A DNA stretch of 64,000 bases from Rikenellaceae bacterium (GTDB taxonomy: Bacteria; Bacteroidota; Bacteroidia; Bacteroidales; Rikenellaceae): positions 8,467 through 72,466 of the forward strand of contig JAJBVT010000033.1 of assembly GCA_020859685.1 (NCBI GenBank), read 5' to 3'. Shown here piece after piece: positions 51,092-58,941 of the stretch. The notes beneath the pieces are model-generated. The model saw nothing but the letters and a program-made list of their open reading frames with translations, searched no databases and was not told the origin of the DNA. Within the stretch, counting starts at the first letter, position 1. Each line of letters begins with the position of its first letter. The translations under genes were made by a program, and so were the position numbers.

Positions 51092-51163
51092 GGTTCCATA
51101 GTTCAAGGGATAGAACGGAAGTTTCCTAAACTTCAGATTCTGGTTCGAGTCCAGGTGGAACTA
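51092..51163 (+). tRNA. tRNA-Arg (CCU anticodon)
   Basis: A 72-nt cloverleaf. The acceptor stem is GGTTCCA with TGGAACT (one G-U pair), then U8 and A9, D stem GTTC/GAAC, anticodon stem GAAGT/ACTTC with loop TTCCTAA, T arm CTGG TTCGAGT CCAG, discriminator A. CCA is not encoded. It is a likely integration site, because a truncated integrase lies 145 nt downstream. Confidence 0.92.
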
Positions 51164-51204
51164 CAAGGCCCCAGAGCGGTATAACCACGATTTAAGGGCA
51201 TTAC

Positions 51205-51231
51205 AACGGCAGAAATCTACTGCCGTTTTTT
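51205..51231 (+). terminator. Terminator after tRNA-Arg
   Basis: AACGGCAG, a 7-nt loop, CTGCCGTT and a run of T. Rho-independent form. Confidence 0.85.
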
Positions 51232-51307
51232 CATTTATATACACATAGTTTTTACTTTTGTTTGCAAATGTTGTCCAAATGTTGTCCAAAAATAAAGGGG
51301 TTAATTA

Positions 51308-51409
51308 ATGGCTTCCGTATCGTTTAAAGCGGTAGTATATTTCGGCCACCGGAAAAAGGACGGGACTTATAATACGAGGCGTAAAATAACAATATATGGA
51401 CAGGCTTAA
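51308..51409 (+). pseudogene. Truncated tyrosine recombinase (integrase) N-terminus
   Basis: The frame begins MASVSFKAVVYFGHRKKDGT, then YNTRRKITIYGQA and a stop. The SFKAVV...KKDGTYxxRxKIT pattern is the arm-binding N-terminus of Bacteroidetes tyrosine recombinases carried by integrative elements, which are normally about 400 residues. Homology seems to stop near 51395, where the alkylation-repair gene begins. Upstream there is a tandem ATGTTGTCCAAATGTTGTCC motif, a possible arm-site repeat. Together with the adjacent tRNA-Arg this marks the scar of a lost mobile element. Confidence 0.6.
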
Positions 51410-52085
51410 AAAGATAATAGAGTGGATGGGGACCTTGCGCAACCAGAAGAGTATCGAGGGGATGCAAAGGTTCGGGATAACCACCGGGAACGCCTTCGGT
51501 ATAAGCACCCCGACACTGGCGGCGATGGCGCGGGAACTGGGCCGGGACCAGCCGCTCGCCATCGAGTTGTGGGATACGGGAATACGCGAGGCCCGGATTC
51601 TGGCCGCTATGGTGGCCGACCCGGCCGGTTTCACCCCCGACCTGATGGACCGCTGGTGCGCCGACTTCAACTCGTGGGACATCTGCGACCAGGTCTGCAC
51701 CCGGGTGTTCCGTTACACGCCCTATGCCGATGAGAAGATACACGAATGGGCGCGGTCGGAGGAGGAATATGTCCGACGGGCGGCCTTCGCACTCATTGCG
51801 GCCACGGCCGTGAGCGATAAGAAGGCCCCTGACTGTCGTTTCGAAGCCTACCTGCCCCTCATCATCGAAGCCGGGGAAGACGACCGCAACTTCGTCCGCA
51901 AGGCCGTAAACTGGGCGCTACGGCAAATCGGCAAGCGCAGCCCGGGCCTCTGGTTCAAAGCCATCGCCACGGCCGAGGAGTTGATGGTAAGTCCGAATAA
52001 AACCAGCCGGTGGATAGGCAGCGATGCGACCCGTGAACTTACCGGGGAGAAGGTCATCCGCAGGCTCGACTTCGGGCAGGTGTAA
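51396..52085 (+). CDS. AlkD-like DNA alkylation repair protein
   Basis: A 229-residue all-helical HEAT-repeat protein of the AlkD/DNA alkylation repair family (GISTPTLAAMARELGRDQPL, ELWDTGIREARILAAMVADP, DRWCADFNSWDICDQVCTRV, FVRKAVNWALRQIGKRS). Family members excise or bind bulky and N3/N7-alkylated purines, using aromatic and acidic residues in the concave surface (W and D in NSWDICD). It sits directly at the integrase scar and its first codons may use sequence from the junction. Likely a single-gene unit. Confidence 0.87.
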   Translation: MDRLKKIIEWMGTLRNQKSIEGMQRFGITTGNAFGISTPTLAAMARELGRDQPLAIELWDTGIREARILAAMVADPAGFTPDLMDRWCADFNSWDICDQVCTRVFRYTPYADEKIHEWARSEEEYVRRAAFALIAATAVSDKKAPDCRFEAYLPLIIEAGEDDRNFVRKAVNWALRQIGKRSPGLWFKAIATAEELMVSPNKTSRWIGSDATRELTGEKVIRRLDFGQV

Positions 52086-57531: not shown

Positions 57532-58941
57532 TCACTGTTTTCTCACCAGTTTAGCCACATTCTCAACATGGTGGGTATGCGGGAACATATCCACGGGCTG
57601 GACGGCGACAATATCGTACGCAGGGGCCAGCAGCGCCAGGTCCCGCGCCTGAGTGGCCGGGTTACAACTGACGTAGACTATCCTACCGGGCGATGCCCGC
57701 AGTATGGTACGGGCCACATCCTCGTGGATACCAGCCCTCGGCGGGTCGAGTATGACTACGTCCGGCCGACCGTGGCGCCCGATAAACTCATCGTCCAGCA
57801 CATCTTTCATATCTCCGGCGTAGAATGCAGTATTGGTGATGCCGTTGATTTCGGAGTTCACCCTGGCGTCTTCTATCGCCTCGGGTACATATTCCACCCC
57901 GACGACACGGGCGCACCCGCGTGCAACGAAGTTAGCAATTGTACCCGTACCGGTATAGAGGTCGTAAACAATGTCGTCCGTCCGGAGGTCCGCAAACTCC
58001 CGCGTCACCCGGTACAGCTCGTATGCCTGCGCGGAGTTGGTCTGGTAGAAAGACTTGGGCCCTATCTTGAACCGCAGGTCCTCCATCTGTTCGAATATAT
58101 GGTCCCGGCCCCGGAAAAGGCGCACCCTTTGGTCCGCAATCGAGTCGTTCAGTTTGCCGTTAACTACGTACATCAGCGAAGTAATAGCGTGGAACGAGTC
58201 GGCTATAGCCTCGAGCAGAGGTTCGTAATTCCCGGGAGTATCGGCGGCGAACACCACTATTACCATCACCTCACCGGTGGACGAGGTGCGGATTATAACG
58301 TTGCGCATAAACCCGAGGTGCGACCGGGGGTCGTAAAACTCCAGGCCCCGGTCCGAACACTCCCGTTTCAGCCACAGCCGTATATCGTTGGAGGGTTCGG
58401 GCTGGAGCCAGCATTTACGGATATCGAGCACCTTGTCGAACATTCCGGGAATGTGGAAACCCAGCCCGCGGGCATCACCCAACTGACCGTCGGTCCGAAT
58501 CTCGTCCGTGGTAAACCACCGCTTGGACGAGAAGGTATATTCCAGTTTGTTACGGTAAAAATATTCTTCCCGTGAACCGATTGCCGGACGTGGGTCCGGA
58601 ATATCCAGCCCGCCGATGCGCCGCAATTGATCGGCCACCTGCGCGGTTTTGAATTTCAGTTGTTCGCCGTAAGGAATGTTCTGCCATTTGCAGCCGCCGC
58701 AGGTTCCGAAATGTTCGCACGGCGCATCGACTCGCATCGGTGAGGGTTGCCTGAGGGCGGTAATCTTCCCCTCCATATACCGTTTGCGCTTCTTGGTGAT
58801 ACGCACGTCAGCCACGTCGCCCGGCACCCCGTATGGCACGAACACCACCATATCCCCGTATCTTCCGAGAGCTTTTCCTTCTGCGGCGATTGCCGTTATT
58901 TCGAAACTCTCCAGCACGGGGAGCTCTTTTTTTCGGGCCAT
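57532..58941 (-). CDS. rlmD: 23S rRNA (uracil-C5)-methyltransferase (RlmD/TrmA family)
   Basis: A 469-residue class I m5U methyltransferase. It has an N-terminal TRAM domain (FEITAIAAEGKALGRYGDMV), an Fe-S cysteine set (CEHFGTCGGCKWQ), the SAM domain (DIVYDLYTGTGTIANFVA), the DPPRAG motif, and catalytic VSCNPATQARDL. It methylates a uridine in 23S rRNA (U1939 or U747 by analogy); site specificity is not certain. The start MARKKELPVLE was chosen because the -7 box (TATCTTTG) lies between it and an ATG nine codons upstream. Confidence 0.93.
   Translation of the reverse strand: MARKKELPVLESFEITAIAAEGKALGRYGDMVVFVPYGVPGDVADVRITKKRKRYMEGKITALRQPSPMRVDAPCEHFGTCGGCKWQNIPYGEQLKFKTAQVADQLRRIGGLDIPDPRPAIGSREEYFYRNKLEYTFSSKRWFTTDEIRTDGQLGDARGLGFHIPGMFDKVLDIRKCWLQPEPSNDIRLWLKRECSDRGLEFYDPRSHLGFMRNVIIRTSSTGEVMVIVVFAADTPGNYEPLLEAIADSFHAITSLMYVVNGKLNDSIADQRVRLFRGRDHIFEQMEDLRFKIGPKSFYQTNSAQAYELYRVTREFADLRTDDIVYDLYTGTGTIANFVARGCARVVGVEYVPEAIEDARVNSEINGITNTAFYAGDMKDVLDDEFIGRHGRPDVVILDPPRAGIHEDVARTILRASPGRIVYVSCNPATQARDLALLAPAYDIVAVQPVDMFPHTHHVENVAKLVRKQ

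Follow-up and report, generated by a model that had tools for sequence, protein, structure and literature searches.

At the attL junctions of tRNA-targeted prophages and genomic islands, as treated under the Islander concept in the available part of PMC4383910, an integrase with an arm-binding domain adjoins an intact tRNA gene and reads away from it. The locus described here, at a tRNA-Arg(CCU) gene of a Rikenellaceae bacterium, is alike in this respect: part of an integrase lies beside the 3' end of the tRNA and reads away from it, as on an attL side. It differs from the junctions covered in that source in that neither a displaced tRNA fragment nor an element is present and about 22 integrase codons are left. 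The second described group consists of the Phage_int_SAM_5/Arm-DNA-bind_5 recombinases of Bacteroidota, such as those of Bacteroides phage Versailles and of the prophages in Dysgonomonas sp. PF1-14. The N-terminus found here shares 10–12 of 18–20 aligned residues with these proteins, and a promoter box and a pair of repeats with a period of 11 are common to both; in contrast to the Versailles and Dysgonomonas integrases, the copy in our sequence is devoid of the core-binding and catalytic domains.

The third system is tRNA-dependent lysogeny in actinobacteriophages, for which the available portion of PMC10865867 describes a short core, a host tRNA that is not rebuilt and a cognate tRNA carried by the phage. 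Going by titles, the term has also been applied to Sinorhizobium prophages. Elements at the same tRNA in relatives of our organism share with the actinobacteriophages, as far as that portion describes them, a short anticodon-loop core and a complete cognate tRNA, with a split host gene in four of them. In contrast, the tRNA at our locus is single, intact and identical to that of three congeners (G002, G004 and G005), so the scar itself is without such an arrangement. We argue below that it is very probably what remains, on the attL side, of a prophage-like element once integrated at tRNA-Arg(CCU) and later cut by a deletion or rearrangement.

The window, by which we mean the whole stretch of 64,000 nucleotides that was analysed (G000:C23:8467-72466), belongs to a 2.94-Mb genome (G000) in 111 contigs that is 99.26% complete. 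Genomes G001–G006 are congeners, G025 is another genus of the family, and G572, of the same order, is taken to be Dysgonomonas sp. PF1-14, as it carries an integrase identical to the one on NZ_JARXWN010000003.1. The scar has the following parts:

51092..51164, + strand: intact tRNA-Arg(CCU), the attachment gene (ARAGORN and Rfam; 73 nt identical in congeners G002, G004 and G005)
51205..51231, + strand: terminator-like hairpin and T run between the tRNA and the integrase control region (terminator scan)
51253..51260, + strand: TAnnTTTG, −7 promoter box, 12 nt before the repeat pair (pattern match)
51268..51289, + strand: tandem 11-bp direct repeat, two copies of ATGTTGTCCAA, putative integrase arm-type sites
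51308..51373, + strand: integrase remnant, codons 1–22 of a tyrosine recombinase, arm-DNA-binding domain (profiles, relatives)
51374..51409, + strand: end of the remnant frame, with no visible homology, its stop codon inside alkD (compared with relatives)
51396..52085, + strand: alkD-like gene, core flank, its start codon abutting the remnant (Pfam, synteny)

TAnnTTTG, which we take to be the consensus of the Bacteroidota −7 promoter box, occurs 42 times in the window when both strands are counted. The terminator scan found one site against a shuffle mean of 2.0, so by the scan alone the hairpin is not above chance. The repeat copies stand head to tail at 51268-51278 and 51279-51289 and are the sole places in the window that match ATGTTGTCCAA with at most one mismatch. 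The preliminary description had recorded such a tandem motif, and had placed the frame 145 nt after the tRNA; the distance measured from tRNA to start codon is 143 nt. It had also given the integrase about 30 codons. The frame has 33 (51308-51409), of which, on comparison with the sequences of relatives, codons 1–22 (to ..KKDGTYN) resemble an integrase while the last 11 were judged unrelated; an integrase start thus stands, at about 22 codons. The break at an AlkD-like gene is as had been described: the frame runs 14 nt into the ORF 51396-52085, which matches PF08713 DNA_alkylation with E=2.1e-36, and ends there.

Whether so short a frame is really an integrase start was examined with profiles. 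A Pfam scan of its 33 aa assigned no family, and a comparison with phages and plasmids gave no match. A profile from five integrases (L110, L113, L083, L085 and L088) matches the frame with E=2e-5, a value that is partly circular because the frame itself had led to all five seeds. Built from 35 integrases, none of them fetched with the frame, a second profile matches it with E=0.00095 and 15.1 bits among 2,360 ORFs, duplicates included. Every match better than the frame was an integrase; next came the scar of G025 at E=2.7, followed by unrelated ORFs, the first at E=3.3. With these two profiles, the absence of recombinase similarity that the preliminary description had named as speaking against its reading was not what was found. 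Two integrases of relatives were compared with PF17293 Arm-DNA-bind_5, whose cut-off is 22.6 bits: P0002 passes it at 26.3 bits and P0001 stays just under it at 20.8 bits, and both carry Phage_int_SAM_5. Relocation of the stump's integrase within its own genome was considered and rejected, as the eight PF00589 matches there have other N-termini, judged by eye; the own-genome match L051, when read, proved to begin a lipoprotein-like gene.

The repeats upstream of the frame belong to a recurring class. A period-11 pair (at least 8 of 9 positions) stands before 25 of 47 integrase starts where dinucleotide shuffles predict 0.6, and before 19 of 37 in a non-redundant set where they predict 0.8; no other period from 9 to 20 occurs more than twice. 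The 47 starts comprise 39 of the 41 loci of one integrase search (two partial ones omitted), seven other loci and the window, with one Dysgonomonas gene present as the copies L110 and L190. Among control gene starts, one of 164 has such a pair; the control piece L279 itself holds an integrase gene. The sequence of the pair differs between elements (upstream of starts in L190–L228), and period-11 pairs also stand before some integrases at tRNA-Met, -Phe and -Lys genes of Pedobacter, Mucilaginibacter and kin. A TAnnTTTG box lies 12–17 nt before the pair in six of eight relatives, and in the window the spacing is 12 nt; L083 and L094, the two relatives without the box, have no good pair either.

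Where both ends of an element can be seen, its own pair recurs in the same direction 71–87 nt before the core at the far end (three of three elements). In the Dysgonomonas prophages the far-end pair matches at 19 of 20 positions at 103759 (prophage 1) and at 18 of 21 at 162426 (prophage 2), the next best place in each element reaching 14; in phage Versailles, of which the first 4,585 and last 498 bases were compared, it matches at 19 of 20 at 58018. In phages whose integrases bind arm sites, putative arm-type site pairs lie on both sides of the attP core, according to the available part of PMC10865867, and arm sites in general are treated in the part of PMC8138268 at hand. Because of the far-end recurrence and this flanking of the core, the ATGTTGTCCAA pair of the window is read as putative integrase-side arm-type sites. 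No second copy of it was found in contig C23 or the examined parts of C13 and C103. Viral contigs contained no exact pair; a relaxed pattern gave 12 stretches in them, none before an ORF longer than 48 aa.

Further evidence came from elements at the same tRNA in other genera. Across 268 genomes of the family, the best non-self match of the 33 aa was G218 (36 matches including self, E up to 1), and across 393 genomes of the order there were four, namely G572 twice, G403 and G552. Three of these four (both in G572, and G403) directly follow tRNA-Arg(CCU), as does G218, while the locus of G552 holds no tRNA. The family search further yielded G063 and G025 at tRNA-Arg(CCU) and three integrase starts after other tRNAs (Ala in G073, Gly in G231 and G232); several of its remaining matches are weak and belong to other proteins. 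The integrase of G218 is split into two frames of 145 and 372 aa and that of G403 is cut by a contig end, whereas those of the G572 pair and G063 are open. A second scar was found in G025 (L094, from 1312), where an integrase start broken by a frame change follows fabH and tRNA-Arg(CCU) and reads almost as the window frame does (E=0.003 over 14 residues).

At the DNA level the scar scores 52 against the same interval of G218 (shuffle maximum 26, none of 500 as high; control region only) and 46 against that of G025 (shuffle maximum 27, again none of 500), by single-base shuffles and with no correction for the fact that both genomes had been pre-selected by the scar. There was no excess over G005, G002, G063 or G003, for which 331, 167, 32 and 29 of 500 shuffles score as high. 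These results bear on the simplest alternative, that both the 33-codon frame and the tandem motif arose by chance. The frame is indeed short and Pfam is silent on it, its non-circular profile score of 15.1 bits is modest, and at least two ATGTTGTCCAA-like places (at most one mismatch) arise in 16 of 100 shuffles of the window, so that the count alone is weak proof and it is adjacency and position that matter. Nevertheless, the relatives at tRNA-Arg(CCU), the DNA similarity to two other genera beyond 500 shuffles and the layout of promoter box, repeats and start common to the relatives all argue against chance, which we hold to be extremely improbable. Among 103 distinct tRNA-Arg(CCU) loci whose downstream sequence exceeds 150 nt, fetched with neither the scar DNA nor the frame, the window alone carries a convincing remnant (next L128, E=0.027, the rest weaker), and an integration hotspot is unsupported; split tRNA loci are under-sampled in this set because the loci had been found by similarity to an intact tRNA.

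The nature of the lost element can be approached through these relatives. Six proteins of Dysgonomonas prophage 1 were scanned and matched terminase, portal, head-morphogenesis, major head and tail families, with one SbcC-like protein; three proteins of prophage 2 gave terminase and head-morphogenesis families and, again, one SbcC-like protein. The head-morphogenesis proteins (L278:4706-7174 and L281:3991-7125) also match PHROGs families annotated as ADP-ribosyltransferase. Over 98% of its length, the prophage 2 integrase shares 51% identity with that of Bacteroides phage Versailles. From this gene content and integrase identity, a phage is the likeliest owner of the stump, and we infer that this particular element was most likely a phage. 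Alternatively, the stump would derive from an ICE, an IME or a satellite with the same type of integrase. Integrase type alone does not tell a phage from an ICE or IME: recombinases of the IntCTnDOT type also serve ICEs, as stated in the available part of PMC8138268, and the part of PMC6764341 at hand reports a 10-kb island at an Arg-tRNA in Riemerella. All three relatives whose content was examined are nevertheless prophages or a phage, which makes this alternative rather unlikely.

The same relatives have a further feature in common. In G218, G063, G403 and both copies in G572, a second stretch containing TTTCCTAAA precedes a complete tRNA-Arg(CCU) by 86–98 nt, and the integrase comes after this tRNA. 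The upstream stretch is recognisable as a tRNA-Arg 5' half in four of these five; in the second G572 copy the match shrinks to about 23 nt, which is what a junction between two prophages would give. In the scar of G025, neither a second TTTCCTAAA-containing stretch nor an element-borne tRNA was seen. The host 3' half was seen only in Dysgonomonas, where it lies at 162.5 kb and the 5' half at 46.67 kb; between them are two tandem prophages, each with its own tRNA-Arg(CCU) (L276–L282, G572:C3:46671-162513). ARAGORN scores the place at 162.5 kb as a 70-nt tRNA-Arg(CCU) of its own, so the junction may make some tRNA, which counts against a host gene that is not rebuilt. Phage Versailles (ON453897.1, L290–L291), judged from the phage sequence and without host junctions, begins with AAAC.., has a tRNA-Arg(CCU) at 93-165 and the integrase at 272, and ends in ..AGAAGTTTCCTAAA. 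An element-borne tRNA-Arg(CCU) is thus present in Versailles and in each of the five relatives at this site that have a second core upstream.

This suggests that tRNA-dependent lysogeny may also occur in Bacteroidota phages at tRNA-Arg(CCU); a limited literature search found no report of it there. The loci with a complete tRNA-Arg(CCU) beside the integrase include L048, L088 and L111; where the host side is seen, the host tRNA is split in the anticodon loop. Another tRNA may be concerned as well: the anticodon-loop 9-mer of tRNA-Met(CAU) is repeated 154–164 nt ahead of that tRNA, and an integrase follows, in seven of 41 loci (L197, L198, L199, L200, L202, L205 and L207), possibly the same arrangement of tRNA replacement.

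On its other side the stump is bounded by core genes. Next to the tRNA in G005 stand, in the same order as in the window, alkD, crp, an exonuclease gene, rluD, cdd, mnmD, rlmCD, pirin, araC and a BASS-type transporter gene, and the set from alkD to the transporter also forms a block elsewhere in G002. The gene labels are our own; Pfam agrees for the alkD, crp, exonuclease, rluD-like and cdd-like proteins. Of the two origins that had been proposed for these neighbours, cargo or flanking core, the second is borne out: alkD, crp and the eight others are core, and the conserved order in G005 and G002 rules out alkD and crp as cargo of the element.

In G002 and G004 a histidine kinase gene (HisKA and HATPase_c; L176, L180) comes directly before alkD, with no more than 10 nt between its end and the alkD start. 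The match of that gene in G000 lies 19 kb downstream (G000:C23:78864-80228), and alkD adjoins the tRNA instead. The tRNA-alkD junction is therefore a breakpoint relative to these two genomes, one of many here, and the remnant ends at it, whether by cause or by coincidence. Movement of a circularly permuted 20-kb block into the tRNA site, alkD first and the kinase gene last, is not claimed, given the many breakpoints between G002 and G000; it is also weakened by two tested flank genes that match on other contigs, one at only 37% identity.

The closest congener, G005, whose alkD is 85% identical in DNA, has fabH, the tRNA, 289 nt and alkD in this order, without any trace of an integrase; its spacer was rejected as a second remnant or a repeat, and 331 of 500 shuffles score as high as its match to the scar. 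The stump could be older than this comparison implies, having arisen with the rearrangement that placed alkD beside the tRNA, before G000 and G005 split, and having then been lost in G005. The break relative to G002 and G004 does fall at the alkD start codon, where the remnant also ends; however, the G005 spacer keeps no trace of an integrase, and with so many G002/G000 breakpoints here a single coincidence weighs little. We regard this older origin as doubtful, though worth serious consideration. An assembly artefact joining an integrase end to alkD is hardly credible: the genome is a draft of 111 contigs, but G005 has the same order of tRNA and alkD with no stump between them, and the stump joins both without interruption.

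All six congeners (G001–G006) lack the scar, and G006 also lacks a tRNA-Arg match. The intact element that the preliminary description hoped to see at this locus in related genomes did not appear in G001–G005, whose tRNA flank was read, nor did the duplicated tRNA 3' end it proposed to look for nearby. The window holds no second copy of the 3' part of tRNA-Arg(CCU) beyond the gene itself, and the genome elsewhere gave two weak matches covering 22 and 17 query positions and no attR, an absence to be expected if a deletion took attR. Nor is the locus identical in all relatives, the other outcome that was to count against the reading, since G005 is without the stump. The central proposal, that an integrative element once occupied this tRNA, is supported by the integrase similarity, the same-site relatives and the absence in the closest congener; its loss was presumably by deletion.

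For the preferred reading, an attL-side stump, the course of events would be as follows. A temperate phage or close kin, equipped with a tyrosine integrase with an arm-binding domain, would have integrated at tRNA-Arg(CCU), its integrase gene lying just inside attL and reading away from the tRNA behind the promoter box and the 11-bp arm-site pair. A later deletion or rearrangement would then have taken out the integrase from about codon 22 onwards and all that followed, attR included, and the same event would have joined the stump to the start codon of alkD. We infer from the sequence that the integrase would have bound the ATGTTGTCCAA repeats, that the events probably took place in this order, and that the promoter region left by the phage may now serve alkD.

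As remnants of integrases next to tRNA genes have been known before, this scar is of little importance on its own. One more speculative extension, which we think improbable, is that the stump is not inert: alkD, behind a captured phage promoter box and a putative arm-site pair, could be responsive to an integrase that recognises the same arm sites, and the lost phage may also have been of the tRNA-dependent type. If so, a DNA-repair gene would stand under a captured phage control region. The scar being ordinary, the parts worth following are the arm-site signature and the element-borne tRNA of the relatives. The 11-bp pair suggests itself as a usable signature, as it points to the integrase type of the lost phage and marks both ends of present phages in three of three cases.
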